This document shows positions 15,752 to 21,522 of a stretch of 63,365 bases of DNA, in pieces (the first letter of the stretch is position 1; each line of letters opens with the position of its first letter). The notes beneath the pieces are model-generated. The model ran no database searches. It saw only the letters and a program-made list of their open reading frames with translations, and had not been told where the DNA came from. The translations under genes were made by a program, and so were the position numbers. Source of the DNA: Spirochaetes bacterium ADurb.Bin215 (GTDB lineage: Bacteria; Spirochaetota; Spirochaetia; Treponematales; Treponemataceae); contig MWCL01000005.1 in the NCBI GenBank assembly GCA_002070025.1, positions 1 to 63,365 on the forward strand. The letters run 5' to 3'.

Positions 15752-17074
15752 CTAAAAGGTTTTGATGAAAACTCGGGAACGCCGTTTTGGATCCCATTTT
15801 TCCTGCCGTTCACGGGGCAACTGGCCGGTTTCCGCTGATTTGAAGCCGAATTTTTCAAACCAGTCGCCGGTTTGTGTAGTAAGGACAAAAACTGACGAAA
15901 ATCCGGCGCTTTTCCCCCGTTGAAGGAGAAGGTCCATGAGCCGGGGTCCGATTCCCATGTGCGCATAGGCTTCATCCACCGCAAGGCCGGCAATTTCTCC
16001 CACGTTTTCGGGATAAGAATGGAGAGCCGCACAGGCCCGGATGCCCCCGTCAATCTCGAAAACAACAAATTCATGGGCTTTTTGCTCTAGTTCTTCGCTG
16101 GTCCTTGGAAGCAGTATGCCTTTTTCCACAAAGGGATTCATGAGGGAAAGGATCGCGGGAATGTCTTCGCGGGTCATGGCGCGGAACGTTCCGTAGTTGT
16201 TTACATAGATCATGGTTCCGGATCCGAGATCCGAGAATATTTCCGCCGGGATTACGCCGTCAATGTCCGCGTCGAGAATATGCGCTCTCGTTACCCCGCC
16301 CAGACAGGCTGTGCGAGCCTGGAGCAACAGGTCCGTGAGTTTATCAACCGGAAGGGTCGGGCTTCCGCTATCACGGTTCAGTTCGAGAAATTCGTCGATG
16401 CTTTCCACGGAGAGTGCCGCAAGCCGTCCCTCCGGGGAGAGCGACGCGGACTCGGGAATGGTGAAGTCGTCTATCGATATGGTATTTCCTGAACCGAGGA
16501 AGAAAAGCTTCCCGGCTTTGAGCGCGGTGGCGGTCGCGACCGCGAGTTCGGTAGACGATATATTGTAGGGTTTGCCGGTGCTCGTCCAACCGATACAGGG
16601 GATGATGGGAATAAAACCGTCTTCGAGAGCCGTGAGAAGGGAGTCGAGCTGGATTTTGTCAACAAAGCCGGCACTTCCGAAATCGGTTCCGTCAAGCACG
16701 CCGCGGCCGCGGGCGCGTACCCAGTTCCCGATTACGGCCGTCAACCCCTCGGCGGAAAGGCGGGTCATGATCCGGTTGGACACATCGAACGCTGCCATCT
16801 TGATGAAATTCATCCCCTCGTCCGAGGTGATGCGGATGGTGTTCTCAATTTTCCAGGCGATACCGTATGAGTCCAGAACCCTGCTTATGTGTTCATGGGC
16901 TCCGGGGATGAGCACAATGCGTATGCCGGTTTCGTGCAAAAGGGCAAGATCGTGGATGTGGCTCGAAAAAAGCGGGGAATCAACCACATCGTCGTCCATG
17001 CGGATTACGATGGTGCTGCCCTTGAACTTGCGGATGTAGCGGATAACATCCCGGATCCCTTCTGTGTGCATCAT
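15752..17074 (-). CDS. argA: N-acetylglutamate synthase (amino-acid kinase + GNAT domains)
   Basis: This 440-residue protein has an amino-acid kinase-like domain (~1-280) fused to a C-terminal GNAT acetyltransferase domain (~295-440), the classic ArgA layout. Visible features include GIRIVLIPGAHEHI, the GFIPIIPCIGW segment of the kinase fold, and the GNAT acetyl-CoA site EIAGLAVDEAYAHMGIGPRLM. It acetylates glutamate as the first step of arginine synthesis. It lies upstream of carAB on the same strand with its own promoter, linking N-acetylglutamate and carbamoyl phosphate production. The start at 17074 is 6 bp after the -10 box; an overlapping second ATG at 17071 is possible. Confidence 0.9.
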   Translation of the reverse strand: MMHTEGIRDVIRYIRKFKGSTIVIRMDDDVVDSPLFSSHIHDLALLHETGIRIVLIPGAHEHISRVLDSYGIAWKIENTIRITSDEGMNFIKMAAFDVSNRIMTRLSAEGLTAVIGNWVRARGRGVLDGTDFGSAGFVDKIQLDSLLTALEDGFIPIIPCIGWTSTGKPYNISSTELAVATATALKAGKLFFLGSGNTISIDDFTIPESASLSPEGRLAALSVESIDEFLELNRDSGSPTLPVDKLTDLLLQARTACLGGVTRAHILDADIDGVIPAEIFSDLGSGTMIYVNNYGTFRAMTREDIPAILSLMNPFVEKGILLPRTSEELEQKAHEFVVFEIDGGIRACAALHSYPENVGEIAGLAVDEAYAHMGIGPRLMDLLLQRGKSAGFSSVFVLTTQTGDWFEKFGFKSAETGQLPRERQEKWDPKRRSRVFIKTF

Positions 17075-17080
17075 GCAGGT

Positions 17081-17109
17081 ATGGTACGGCAGGAATTGGA
17101 CGGCGTCAA
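17081..17109 (-). promoter_or_regulatory. Promoter of argA (leaderless)
   Basis: On the minus strand TTGACG (17109-17104), a 17-bp spacer and TACCAT (17086-17081) end 6 bp before the ATG at 17074. There is no ribosome site. It is back-to-back with the his promoter, with only 17 bp between the two -35 boxes. Confidence 0.7.
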
Positions 17110-17126
17110 CCGGGGCGATTGTACGG

Positions 17127-17155
17127 TTGACACGGTACCGGCTTTGTGGTTTACT
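17127..17155 (+). promoter_or_regulatory. his operon promoter
   Basis: A consensus -35 TTGACA (17127-17132) is followed by a 17-bp spacer and TTTACT (17150-17155), with an extended -10 TG one base upstream. Transcription should start near 17162, only about 4 nt before the leader-peptide ATG at 17166. Confidence 0.8.
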
Positions 17156-17165
17156 TTTTTACATC

Positions 17166-17225
17166 ATGAAAGGAACCCGGATACATCATCATCACCATTT
17201 TCTCGTGTTCTCGATTCCGGGTTGA
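17166..17225 (+). CDS. hisL: His leader peptide with five consecutive His codons
   Basis: A 19-residue frame encodes MKGTRIHHHHHFLVFSIPG. The five histidine codons (CAT CAT CAT CAC CAT) are at 17184-17198 and the stop at 17223-17225. It lies between a strong promoter and an intrinsic terminator, upstream of hisG. This is the arrangement of a translation-controlled attenuator: when charged tRNA-His is scarce the ribosome stalls at the His run and the downstream terminator fails to form. No ribosome-binding site is visible and the predicted 5' leader is ~4 nt, so translation probably starts on a nearly leaderless mRNA. Confidence 0.93.
   Translation: MKGTRIHHHHHFLVFSIPG
17174..17223 (+). promoter_or_regulatory. 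his attenuator segments 1 and 2
   Basis: Segment 1 (17174-17181, AACCCGGA) is perfectly complementary to segment 2 (17216-17223, TCCGGGTT). Segment 2 overlaps the leader stop codon, and its GGGTT can also pair with AACCC (17260-17264) in the 5' arm of the terminator, or its CCGGG with CCCGG at 17264-17268. A ribosome stalled on the His codons would free segment 2; one that finishes translation would cover it. The alternative pairing is only ~5 bp, so folding should be checked. Confidence 0.7.
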
Positions 17226-17253
17226 ATTTGGTGTGTTTGCTCAAGTAATTGTG

Positions 17254-17287
17254 CCGCCGAACCCCCGGGTTACGGCGGTTTTTTTTT
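17254..17287 (+). terminator. his attenuator terminator
   Basis: CCGCCG-AACC (17254-17263) pairs with GGTT-(A)-CGGCGG (17268-17278) around a 4-nt loop. Nine consecutive T residues (17279-17287) follow. It is a strong intrinsic terminator placed 29 bp after the leader stop and 76 bp before hisG. Confidence 0.9.
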
Positions 17288-17363
17288 GCGGGGAACGAAC
17301 GCGGGGTACCGTTAGCGCCTGCGGGTTCCGATACTGTACTAGTAGAGTTCTGGAGGAATTGTA

Positions 17364-18218
17364 ATGGAAAAATTGAAAGTGCTTTTGCCCAAGGGGCGTA
17401 TTTACGAAAATGTGTCTGCCATGTTTGGCGAGGCGGGAATCAAGATTACCCTGCCGGACCGTGCGTACCGCCCCACCGTCAACCAGGACGACCTTGAAGC
17501 GAAAGTCATGAAACCGCAGAATATCGGAAAGCTTCTGGAACTTGGCGCCCACGACGTGGGCTTTACCGGCGTGGACTGGATAGAAGAAACCGGCGCCGAG
17601 GTTGTCGAGATTCTTGATCTCGGGTTTGACCGGGTGCGGATTGTCGCCGCGGTTCCGAACGAGATTGACGATGTGCAGCTCCGAACGAAGCGCATGATTG
17701 TCGCGACTGAATACGTGAACATCTCGGAAACCTGGCTCAAGAAACAGAACATCAATTCCCTCGTGGTTCGCACCCATGGCGCCACCGAGGTCTTTCCGCC
17801 GGACGACGCCGACATGATTATCGACAACACGTCCACGGGACGGACGCTGCAGGAAAACGGTCTTCGCATTGTGGACACCATCATGGAGAGCTCCACCCGC
17901 ATGTTCGCCTCGAAAGAAGCGATGGCGGACCCCGACAAGGCGCGGAAAATCGGCGAGCTCAAGATGCTTTTCGAGGCAGTGCTTGCCGCGCGGAACCGTG
18001 TCATGCTTGAAATGAACGTGTCCAAGGCCCGCTTCTCCGACCTGGTGAGCGGAATTCCGGCGATGAAAAGCCCGACTGTCGCCCCCCTCTACGGCGACGA
18101 CGGCTATGCAGTCAAAATTGTAGTGCGCAAGAGCGAAGTGCCCACCCTCATGCCCCGTCTCAAACAGCTCGGCGCGACCGACATTCTTGAATACGAACTG
18201 AGGAAGGTAATGCCATGA
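17364..18218 (+). CDS. hisG: ATP phosphoribosyltransferase HisG, long form
   Basis: HisG joins ATP and PRPP in the first and feedback-regulated step of histidine synthesis. At 284 residues it is the long form that needs no HisZ. The catalytic part opens with KVLLPKGRI and has DVGFTGVDWIEE; the PRPP loop is DNTSTGRTLQENGL near residue 154. The C-terminal ~75 residues (SPTVAPLYGDDGYAVKIVV) are the ferredoxin-like histidine-binding domain. GGAGG lies upstream of the ATG. It overlaps hisB by 4 bp. Confidence 0.96.
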   Translation: MEKLKVLLPKGRIYENVSAMFGEAGIKITLPDRAYRPTVNQDDLEAKVMKPQNIGKLLELGAHDVGFTGVDWIEETGAEVVEILDLGFDRVRIVAAVPNEIDDVQLRTKRMIVATEYVNISETWLKKQNINSLVVRTHGATEVFPPDDADMIIDNTSTGRTLQENGLRIVDTIMESSTRMFASKEAMADPDKARKIGELKMLFEAVLAARNRVMLEMNVSKARFSDLVSGIPAMKSPTVAPLYGDDGYAVKIVVRKSEVPTLMPRLKQLGATDILEYELRKVMP

Positions 18219-18844
18219 GCGGAAGAACGGCACAGGTTCAGCGGAAAACCGGAGAAACGGTCATCGATCTCACCCTGAATCTTGACGGTACCGGGATCTG
18301 CTCGGTTGACTGTCCGCTGGGTTTCCTCGAACACATGCTCACCTCTTTTTGCAAGCACGGATTGTTTGACCTTGCCGGGTCCCTCTCCGGAGACCTCCAT
18401 GTGGATCAGCACCATCTGGTGGAAGACACCGGTATCGTGCTCGGTCAGGCCTTCGACAAGGCGCTCGGTACCCGGGCGGGCATAACCCGCTCCGGCTGTT
18501 TTCTCTATCCCATGGATGAAACGCTTGCCCGCGCGGCGGTCGATTTCGGCGGACGCCCCTGGCTCGAGTGCTCCCTTGACCTGAGCGGTACGGCGCTTGT
18601 CGCCACGGACGCGTCCGGAAACAGTATTCCCGCGTTCCAGACCGACACGGTGGACGATTTCTGGCAGGGATTTGCCACGGGCGCGAAGTGCAACCTTCAT
18701 CTGGACATTCTCCGGGGCCGGAGCGACCACCACAAGATAGAGGCGGCGTTCAAGGCCGCGGCCCGGGCGATCCGCCAGGCGGTCACCATTGATCCCCGCC
18801 TCGGCGGCACGGTTCCCAGTACCAAGGGAACCCTTACAGACTGA
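18215..18844 (+). CDS. hisB: Imidazoleglycerol-phosphate dehydratase
   Basis: This 209-residue, single-domain HisB has no phosphatase part. The metal-binding His motifs are intact: FLEHMLTSFCKHG (~34-46), DQHHLVEDTGIVLGQA (~65-80), and DILRGRSDHHKIEAAFKA near the C-terminus. It dehydrates imidazoleglycerol phosphate to imidazole acetol phosphate. The ATG overlaps the hisG stop (ATGA), so translation is coupled. The separate histidinol-phosphatase step must be encoded elsewhere. Confidence 0.96.
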   Translation: MSGRTAQVQRKTGETVIDLTLNLDGTGICSVDCPLGFLEHMLTSFCKHGLFDLAGSLSGDLHVDQHHLVEDTGIVLGQAFDKALGTRAGITRSGCFLYPMDETLARAAVDFGGRPWLECSLDLSGTALVATDASGNSIPAFQTDTVDDFWQGFATGAKCNLHLDILRGRSDHHKIEAAFKAAARAIRQAVTIDPRLGGTVPSTKGTLTD

Positions 18845-18860
18845 CAACAAGGACAGTATA

Positions 18861-20147
18861 ATGATAATTTCTTCCATTGATTTGAAAGACGGCAAGGTGG
18901 TTCAACTCCGCCAGGGAAAAGACCTGGTGCTCGAACGGGACAATCCCGACGAGCTCATTGCCGAGTTTAACCGTTACGGTGAAGTGGCGATCATTGATCT
19001 CGACGCGGCGCTCCGGAACACGGCGCCGGACGGAAGTACCGCGAACTCGGCAATTCTGAAGCGTCTGCTCCGCCGCGGAAACGTGCGCGTGGGCGGCGGA
19101 ATCCGGAGCGCGAAAACCGCCCGGGAGCTTGTTTCCCTGGGCGCGGAAAAGGTCATCGTGGGATCCGCCGCGTTTACCCTGCCCGACGGTTCCGCCGGTG
19201 TGAATACCGAGTTCCTCTCCCAGTTTGCCGAAGCGGTCGGGAAGGAACATGTGATCGTGTCGGTGGATGCCCGTGAGGGGAAGATCTCCGTAAAGGGCTG
19301 GACCGAAAGCGCCGGTATCGATGTAATCGAAGGCGCGAAGGCTGTTGAACCGTACTGTTCCGAGCTCCTGTTTACCTGCGTTGAGCGGGAAGGCACCATG
19401 ACGGGGATCGATCTCGAGCTCGTCAAGAAACTTCGCGCGGCCGTACGCTGCCGCCTGGTCGTTGCCGGCGGGGTGTCCACGCTCGAAGAAGTGGTCGCGC
19501 TCGAAAAGCTCGGCTGCGATGTTCAGCTCGGCATGGCCCTGTATACTGGCGCCGTCTCACCCGCGGACGGCTTTGTTGAATGTCTCGACTGGAACAAGCA
19601 GGAGATGATGCCGGTGATCGCGCAGAGCGTGACCGGCGAAGTGCTCATGATGGGCTACGCAAACCGGGAAGCGCTCAAGACCACGTTTGCCCGCGGCCTG
19701 CTCACCTTCTGGAGCCGCAGCCGGAACGAGTTGTGGACCAAGGGCGAAACTTCCGGCAATACGCTCGAAGTGATCAAGCTCCGCATGGACTGCGACCGCG
19801 ACACCATTCTCGCTACCGTTCGCCCCGCGGGCCCAGCCTGCCATACCGGCGCATGGAGTTGTTTTTCCACGGTGGCCGACCGGCCGTACAGTCTGGACTA
19901 TCTTTCATCCGTTATCGCCGATCGATTCGCGAATCCCAAACCGGGTTCCTACACGGCAACCCTGAACGGAGAGCGGGTTCGGGAAAAAGTGATGGAAGAA
20001 GCCGAGGAGCTCACCGAGGCGGAAGACCGCGACGAAGTTATCTGGGAAACCGCCGATCTTCTCTATTTTGTAAACGTGCTCATGAACCGTGAAGGCGTGT
20101 CCTGGAAGGACGTTCTGGACGAGCTTGACCGCCGCCACAAGAAGTAA
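18861..20147 (+). CDS. hisA-hisIE: Trifunctional HisA-HisI-HisE fusion
   Basis: The 428-residue protein joins three enzymes. Residues ~1-235 are a HisA TIM barrel with catalytic Asp residues in SSIDLKDGKVVQL and VSVDAREGKISVKGW. Residues ~240-340 are HisI (phosphoribosyl-AMP cyclohydrolase), with the metal motif MDCDRDTILATVR and ACHTGAWSCF. The last ~85 residues are HisE (pyrophosphohydrolase), with REKVMEEAEELTEA and VIWETADLLYFVNVLM. They catalyse steps 2, 3 and 4 of the pathway. HisIE fusions are common, but adding HisA at the front is unusual; no hisF or hisH is adjacent. The ATG at 18861 follows AAGGACA; an earlier in-frame start at 18789 lies inside hisB. Confidence 0.93.
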   Translation: MIISSIDLKDGKVVQLRQGKDLVLERDNPDELIAEFNRYGEVAIIDLDAALRNTAPDGSTANSAILKRLLRRGNVRVGGGIRSAKTARELVSLGAEKVIVGSAAFTLPDGSAGVNTEFLSQFAEAVGKEHVIVSVDAREGKISVKGWTESAGIDVIEGAKAVEPYCSELLFTCVEREGTMTGIDLELVKKLRAAVRCRLVVAGGVSTLEEVVALEKLGCDVQLGMALYTGAVSPADGFVECLDWNKQEMMPVIAQSVTGEVLMMGYANREALKTTFARGLLTFWSRSRNELWTKGETSGNTLEVIKLRMDCDRDTILATVRPAGPACHTGAWSCFSTVADRPYSLDYLSSVIADRFANPKPGSYTATLNGERVREKVMEEAEELTEAEDRDEVIWETADLLYFVNVLMNREGVSWKDVLDELDRRHKK

Positions 20148-20184
20148 CCAGTTCCCGCAAAAGCGATCACCGCAAGGAGGAACC

Positions 20185-21522
20185 ATGACCAACCCGATTA
20201 TTCCGCGATATACCGCGAATACCGTACCGGAGTCTTTTTTTTCCGTACGCCGGCTCGACGACGCCCTGGGTGTCGCCGCGGGCATTCTTGCCGCGGTACG
20301 CGAACGCGGCGATACGGCCGTGCGGCACTACGCGTCGCAGTTTGACCGGGCTAACCCGTCCCGGCTTGAAGTATCCTCCGACGATGTACGCGCCGCCGAA
20401 GAAACCCTGAAAAATGAAAATCCCGAACTGTACCAGGCGCTCCGCCATTCGCGGGATCTCGCCATGCAGTTCGCGCTCCGTCAAAAAGAGTCGTTCGATA
20501 CCTTTGAAACCGAACTGGTTCCCGGGATCATTACCGGACAAAAGACCCTGCCGGTGGAACGTGCCGGAGTCTATGTGCCCGGCGGCCGCTTCCCGCTTTT
20601 CTCGAGCGTGATCATGGGCGTGACCCCGGCGAAGGCCGCCGGCTGTGATTCGGTTATTTTCTGTTCCCCGCCGGTTCCGCATCCGTCCGGAAATCCTGAT
20701 TCCCCGTACTGTGATCCCCGGATACTCGCGGTTGCCTCTCTCTGTGGTGTAGACCGGGTATTCGCCGCCGGCGGCGCGCAGGCGATAGCCGCCATGGCCT
20801 ACGGAACGGAAAGCGTTCCTGCCGTCAATGTGGTTGTGGGTCCGGGAAACAAGTTCGTTACCGCCGCGAAACGGCTGGTATTCGGCGAAGTGGGTATCGA
20901 CATACCGGCAGGCCCGTCGGAGGTGCTGATCATCGCCGACGATTCGGCGAATCCCGCCTGGGTCGCCGCGGACATGCTCGCCCAGGCCGAACACGATGTG
21001 GACGCGCAGGCCGTGCTTCTCACCACTTCCGCGGCGCTCGCGGACGCGGTTACCGCCGAGCTCGAGATTCAGCTCGGGGATCTCCCCGGAGACGCTCCGG
21101 CGCGGAAGAGTCTTGCCGGAAACAGCGCGGTTATTATTGTTGAAACACTGGAGCAGGCGGTGAACATTGCCAACCGCAAAGCGCCGGAGCACCTTGAGCT
21201 TGCGCTTGAGGCCGGCGGTGAGCGGGAACGTCTGGTGAAGGAATTGCGGAATTACGGATCGCTGTTTATCGGTCACGGATCGGCGGAAATTCTCGGGGAT
21301 TATGCGGCCGGTCTTAACCATACCCTGCCGACTTCCGGAGCCGCCCGATTCACCGGCGGTCTTTCGGTACGGCACTTCCTGAAAACGGTTACCACATTGC
21401 GTACGGGGGAAGCCGGAAGCGACCGCTCCGGATGGGAAGCCTCGCTTGCAGCGGCGGAACAGCTCGCGCTTGCCGAGGGATTAACCTTCCACGCGCGCGC
21501 CGCACGCTGTCGGATGGACTAA
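20185..21522 (+). CDS. hisD: Histidinol dehydrogenase
   Basis: HisD oxidises histidinol to histidine in the last two steps, with NAD+ and Zn. The 445-residue protein has the full set of motifs: GVYVPGGRFPLFSSVIMGV (~130), AGGAQAIAAMAYGTESVP (~195), VVGPGNKFVTAAKRLVFG, IDIPAGPSEVLII, AQAEHDVDAQA with metal ligands, and NHTLPTSGAARFTGGLSVRHF near the C-terminus. AAGGAGG precedes the ATG at 20185. It is the last gene of the his transcript and its stop overlaps the convergent acyltransferase gene by 4 bp. Confidence 0.97.
   Translation: MTNPIIPRYTANTVPESFFSVRRLDDALGVAAGILAAVRERGDTAVRHYASQFDRANPSRLEVSSDDVRAAEETLKNENPELYQALRHSRDLAMQFALRQKESFDTFETELVPGIITGQKTLPVERAGVYVPGGRFPLFSSVIMGVTPAKAAGCDSVIFCSPPVPHPSGNPDSPYCDPRILAVASLCGVDRVFAAGGAQAIAAMAYGTESVPAVNVVVGPGNKFVTAAKRLVFGEVGIDIPAGPSEVLIIADDSANPAWVAADMLAQAEHDVDAQAVLLTTSAALADAVTAELEIQLGDLPGDAPARKSLAGNSAVIIVETLEQAVNIANRKAPEHLELALEAGGERERLVKELRNYGSLFIGHGSAEILGDYAAGLNHTLPTSGAARFTGGLSVRHFLKTVTTLRTGEAGSDRSGWEASLAAAEQLALAEGLTFHARAARCRMD

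Follow-up and report, generated by a model that had tools for sequence, protein, structure and literature searches.

The his operon in the window (the whole stretch of 63,365 nucleotides of spirochaete DNA that was analysed) is very probably controlled by a ribosome-mediated transcription attenuator carried on a leaderless transcript. In silico, this assignment is supported by the elements themselves, their conservation, mutually exclusive folds, the absence of a Shine-Dalgarno sequence and a fixed distance from the -10 box to the ATG; the actual 5' end, the translation of the leader and its response to histidine are what we infer. Every element claimed in the initial annotation (promoter, 19-codon frame, five His codons, pairings and T9 terminator, in order before hisG) is present base for base, and the locus reads as follows.

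17127-17155, + strand: sigma-70-type promoter (-35 TTGACA at 17127-17132, 17-nt spacer, -10 TTTACT at 17150-17155)
17166-17225, + strand: hisL-like leader peptide ORF, MKGTRIHHHHHFLVFSIPG then stop, 19 codons (ATG at 17166, TGA at 17223-17225)
17174-17181, + strand: segment 1 (in this genome), AACCCGGA, exact complement of 17216-17223 (TCCGGGTT)
17187-17190, + strand: His-codon segment CATC, able to pair with GGTG at 17230-17233 (RNAalifold consensus, 12 sequences)
17216-17233, + strand: segment 2, TCCGGGTT-GAATT-TGGTG, across the stop codon (folds with and without a ribosome mask; invariant positions in alignment A1)
17255-17267, + strand: segment 3 (fold with a ribosome on the His codons, -14.9 kcal/mol)
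17253-17287, + strand: intrinsic terminator, stem 17253-17263 with 17268-17279, T9 at 17279-17287 (-17.4 kcal/mol)
17364-18218, + strand: hisG, ATP phosphoribosyltransferase, first gene of the operon (PF01634, PF08029, TIGR00070)
18215-18844, + strand: hisB (Pfam and NCBIfam)
18861-20147, + strand: hisA-hisIE fusion (Pfam and NCBIfam)
20089-21522, + strand: hisD, as ORF (Pfam and NCBIfam)

The -10 box is a 4/6 match, and a transcription start near 17162, as predicted at ~7 nt after this box, gives a 5' UTR of 4 nt, the same value as first proposed. The short leader ORF, with its five consecutive His codons at 17184-17198 and no Shine-Dalgarno sequence, stands directly upstream of the his operon, and the intrinsic terminator lies between it and the first gene, hisG, whose ATG (17364) is preceded by a Shine-Dalgarno GGAGG. 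Segment 2 can pair with either segment 1 or segment 3, the latter overlapping the 5' arm and loop of the terminator; it spans the stop codon (17223-17225), in agreement with the earlier placement of the stop on this segment, and in the window fold 17227-17233 would lie under a ribosome positioned at the stop codon. The competing pairing that had been noted was found, and the predicted antiterminator can now be specified as 17227-17233 with 17255-17261 plus 17218-17221 with 17264-17267. The folding energy of the whole leader is unremarkable taken alone (z -1.5). The N-acetylglutamate synthase gene (15752-17074, minus strand) runs divergently upstream of the leader, and the hisA-hisIE product is a single 428-residue protein in which HisA is joined to HisI-HisE (PF00977, PF01502, PF01503).

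In the mechanism that we propose, RNA polymerase would initiate about 4 nt before the leader ATG, and a ribosome would load at the 5' end without a Shine-Dalgarno sequence and trail the polymerase. When His-tRNA is scarce, this ribosome would stall on the five His codons and mask both segment 1 and the His codons, which form the upstream partner, leaving segment 2 around the stop codon to pair with the terminator 5' arm; the resulting antitermination would permit read-through into hisG-hisB-hisA/IE-hisD. When histidine is ample, the ribosome would reach the stop codon, its footprint would lie over segment 2, and the terminator would fold and stop transcription at the T9 tract.

Conservation of the leader in two orders of Spirochaetia

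Among named records, the nearest hisG genes belong to Spirochaetales, Treponema and Brucepastera, which places the genome in the Spirochaetota and agrees with the spirochaete origin first suggested; the pattern scan covered 393 genomes of the phylum. A promoter, His-run leader and terminator precede the single hisG in 11/11 other genomes of the genus, so that the His run is kept in all 12 members; the conservation check proposed with the initial annotation was run and passed. In alignment A1, which comprises 12 sequences (the window, ten genus members and Brucepastera), gaps within the leader frame are all multiples of three, and this pattern ends directly after the stop codon, as expected of a translated leader followed by untranslated RNA. 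Genus leader peptides before hisG mostly end in Pro-Gly-stop in this alignment, which probably reflects the conservation of CCGGGTTGA in segment 2, but Pro-Gly may also slow termination.

Beyond the genus, leaders of this kind occur in Breznakiella, Brucepastera, several termite and rumen Treponema, and others, and 35 loci, genus included, pass a stricter filter that demands a terminator-like hairpin before the T run. At about eight further loci, the His run in this position is shorter; runs that are short or broken (HSQHH, HLHRH, YHH) stand upstream of hisG at L025, L028, L030, L043, L064, L065, L080 and L087, as if, judging by their sequences, the attenuator were decaying in some Treponema. 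The leader is absent from many host-associated Treponema. Seven genomes of one family in another order of the same class, which we take to be Sphaerochaetaceae, also carry His leaders (e.g., MKKTLALHHHHHISES and MNRTIAKAHHHHLLRMQP) with about 6 nt from -10 box to ATG, a T tract and a more distant hisG. A His-like match in another class (G116) yielded no leader by the scan used. The locus, initially judged unusual for a probable spirochaete, is not an isolated one: His leaders of the leaderless type are frequent upstream of hisG in two of the class's orders.

Alternative pairings and the position of the ribosome

The 8-bp pairing of 17174-17181 with 17216-17223, described initially as the stem of segments 1 and 2, is present in the window as an exact complement, and an 8-bp run of this kind appeared in 63/5000 shuffles (1.3%). 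It is absent from the relatives and thus specific to this genome; most of them pair the His codons with GGTG instead. Unprompted, the RNAalifold consensus of 12 sequences joins CATC of the His codons to GGTG just past the stop codon (columns 34-37 with 83-86), a pairing present in most of the sequences, and also recovers the terminator; single folds of most relatives contain a similar pairing of His codons with a GGTGGTG-like element. In these models, the conserved form of the 1:2 pairing is that of CATC with the GGTG just after the stop codon.

The terminator shows compensatory changes within the genus by RNAalifold, and pairing is far stronger between its own arms than between swapped ones (P 2e-4 in the genus, 6e-11 overall; these and all P values below overstate the evidence, because the loci share ancestry). 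The corresponding segment-swap test of the 2:3 pairing gave no weakening within the genus (P 0.59), where the arms are too conserved to covary, and weak support in the termite clade (P 0.013) and the overall set (P 0.014).

To represent the nascent RNA, folds were computed with the RNA cut before the terminator 3' arm and a ribosome footprint imposed, 12 nt from the first base of the A-site codon. The mean probability that the terminator 5' arm is paired upstream is 0.78-0.81 with the ribosome on the His codons vs 0.29 with the ribosome on the stop codon (Wilcoxon P 3e-10, with the same caveat on ancestry); when the stretch between leader and terminator is shuffled, these values become 0.56 and 0.41. 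Across the 35 loci, computed folds with a ribosome on the His codons contain an antiterminator that shares the terminator 5' arm. In free nascent RNA, blocking of the terminator arm is still favoured at many loci, and the 8-bp stem, a putative protector, is specific to the window. The window alone yields 0.86 (His) and 0.41 (stop), with an antiterminator of unexceptional strength (z -1.0; 20/100 shuffles are as stable). Of two controls from E. coli, trpL behaves alike (0.62 and 0.00), while hisL shows no discrimination between His and stop positions in this simple nascent-fold test, because its leader is longer and forms multiple hairpins. Folding with and without masking of the leader, as the initial annotation had advised, thus gave mutually exclusive folds and an effect of ribosome position across loci; as modeled, the attenuator logic appears convincing from the set of related loci, not from the window by itself. 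Full-equilibrium folding with ribosome masks was uninformative, as the terminator wins in most loci at any ribosome position; antitermination could thus only arise kinetically, which is also the assumption made for known attenuators. Overall, the comparative tests (His run, in-frame gaps, terminators and folds) support the attenuator reading.

Leaderless layout, a second leader and rival explanations

We predict a leaderless leader mRNA, from start sites that are themselves sequence predictions, because the -10 box and ATG are 6-10 nt apart and a Shine-Dalgarno sequence is absent. The start codon lies 6-10 nt past the -10 box in 34/34 hisG loci with a detectable promoter, and a gap of 6 nt places the ATG at or adjoining the expected transcription start. 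The longest Shine-Dalgarno-like match is 0-4 bases before the leader vs 4-6 before hisG. By sequence, these loci have the layout of leaderless mRNA, with a start codon at or only a few nt from the predicted transcription start and no Shine-Dalgarno sequence; the comparison agrees with the near-leaderless mRNA without a ribosome site that had been predicted, and the promoter-ATG spacing common to the relatives speaks against a transcription start downstream of 17225, which the initial annotation had named as contrary evidence. A strict leaderless pattern (TTGACA-N16-18-TNNANT-N5-9-ATG) matches 16 times in the window's own genome (G000) vs once for the reversed pattern used as control, most of the 16 standing before ordinary genes, and a looser pattern matches 118 vs 46 times in the same genome. 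A second pattern match in this genome (C45) was rejected as a leader, as it encodes a 455-residue protein. The N-acetylglutamate synthase gene also looks leaderless (minus strand, 17069-17109: TTGACG, 17 nt, TACCAT, 6 nt, ATGATG).

Among the leaderless matches is one before an ilvB-type acetolactate synthase gene, which has a leader, MNAIFGLATVLVLLVVVVHKKRMRLSQA, and a T9 terminator upstream (G000:C13:23425-23462, minus strand, L178/L179). Leaders of this type, with long Val/Leu runs and a terminator, occur in 11/11 genus genomes in which the gene was found (11 of the 12 genus genomes) and have their start codon 6-8 nt past the -10 box; with a ribosome at the run, the terminator arm is blocked with a probability of 0.72, against 0.15 with the ribosome at the stop (0.58 and 0.32 after shuffling). 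The promoter-leader-terminator scan of the genus returned no leaderless attenuators before trpE and homoserine dehydrogenase; a weak seven-codon match before the homoserine dehydrogenase gene was set aside, as it has no fitting codon run. At L223 (G149:C6:200-1700), a near-leaderless leader, MFMKTVGFKQHHHHSHAAPSRTF, stands upstream of an apparent sodium:solute symporter (named by eye), with a terminator that is not clear-cut; its sequence suggests a possible histidine transporter under similar control.

We weigh three other explanations of the his locus. That it is a his attenuator on a transcript that is not leaderless, starting further upstream with a normal 5' UTR and a leader translated by another route, seems improbable to us: the transcription start is a prediction, and the -10 box of the window is the 4/6 match TTTACT, but the -35/-10/ATG spacing is shared by all 34 loci, with about 6 nt between -10 box and ATG in the other-order family, the leader lacks the Shine-Dalgarno sequence that hisG has, and the spacing is enriched genome-wide (16 matches vs 1 reversed). 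Less likely still is a plain intrinsic terminator that constitutively lowers basal his expression, the His-rich ORF being translated without control of read-through. The dominance of the terminator at equilibrium in nearly every state and the nonsignificant shuffle test of the window alone would fit such an element; on the other hand, it leaves unaccounted for the His codons kept before hisG across two orders, the Val/Leu codons at the matching place before ilvB, and an effect of ribosome position across loci that exceeds that of shuffles.

Ownership of the terminator by another histidine sensor, a T-box or a protein repressor, is hardly credible here, even though in other phyla his genes are under the control of his T-boxes and of the repressor HisR (PMC9413887). 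Scanning the window with Rfam at gathering score and at E <= 10 returned no useful family and no riboswitch or T-box; no family, T-box included, reaches its gathering score, and there is no convincing sub-threshold match at 17100-17400. His_leader (RF00514) itself scores 15.7 bits vs a gathering score of 49 (E 2.7), below threshold. Moreover, the stretch from start to terminator is about 120 nt, half of which is the leader ORF.

Under the preferred reading, a ribosome-mediated attenuator on a leaderless transcript, two operons with a common leaderless layout, one kept across two orders, constitute a natural system for studying the coupling of leaderless initiation to transcription within about 120 nt. 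The histidine and branched-chain pathways, and one possible histidine transporter, also gain a regulatory annotation in spirochaetes, where amino-acid control is little known. It is possible, though less likely than not, that leaderless leader peptides are a general amino-acid attenuator design of Spirochaetia (for his and ilvB at least), in which switching requires, besides charged tRNA, leaderless initiation as the 5' end emerges; if so, it would respond to conditions that alter leaderless initiation.

Relation to known attenuators

Most descriptions of ribosome-mediated attenuation come from Proteobacteria, Actinobacteria and some Firmicutes. Our searches of open-access papers found no report of spirochaete leader-peptide attenuators or of Treponema leaderless starts. 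As of 2010, Proteobacteria and Actinobacteria were regarded as the only groups with reports of leader-peptide attenuation (PMC2965389), and leaderless genes have been predicted for 6/18 spirochaete genomes (PMC3160421). Attenuators with His leaders are known from Proteobacteria, and comparative work has placed others in the Bacillus cereus group, Eubacteriales and Erysipelotrichales, with 3-5 His codons and a terminator and antiterminator before his operons, as in the spirochaete loci; these belong to Firmicutes, and the accessible text makes no mention of spirochaetes or leaderless leaders (PMC9413887).

The spirochaete leader shares with E. coli hisL (Rfam RF00514) a His run in a short ORF, alternative folds, a T-tract terminator with hisG next, and a GTGGTG segment further downstream with which the His codons can pair. 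It differs in its lack of a Shine-Dalgarno sequence, its practically absent 5' UTR, its shorter and simpler fold and its phylum, and it is not recognised by the RF00514 model. The transcript of Corynebacterium glutamicum ilvBNC also opens with a leader ORF: transcription starts one nucleotide from the leader start codon and attenuation depends on translation (PMC11857589); that system responds to branched-chain amino acids in Actinobacteria, and the spirochaete ilvB leader is its nearer match. Sinorhizobium meliloti trpLE(G) likewise has a leaderless attenuator, with a transcript that starts with the ATG of the leader peptide (PMC7298713), but it concerns tryptophan in Alphaproteobacteria, and its terminated RNA and peptide act in trans too. 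We rank the his-leader design as a variant and not a new kind, because His attenuators and leader ORFs at the 5' end are already established, leaderless attenuators being known from C. glutamicum ilvBNC and S. meliloti trp; among spirochaetes, this variant is broadly conserved.
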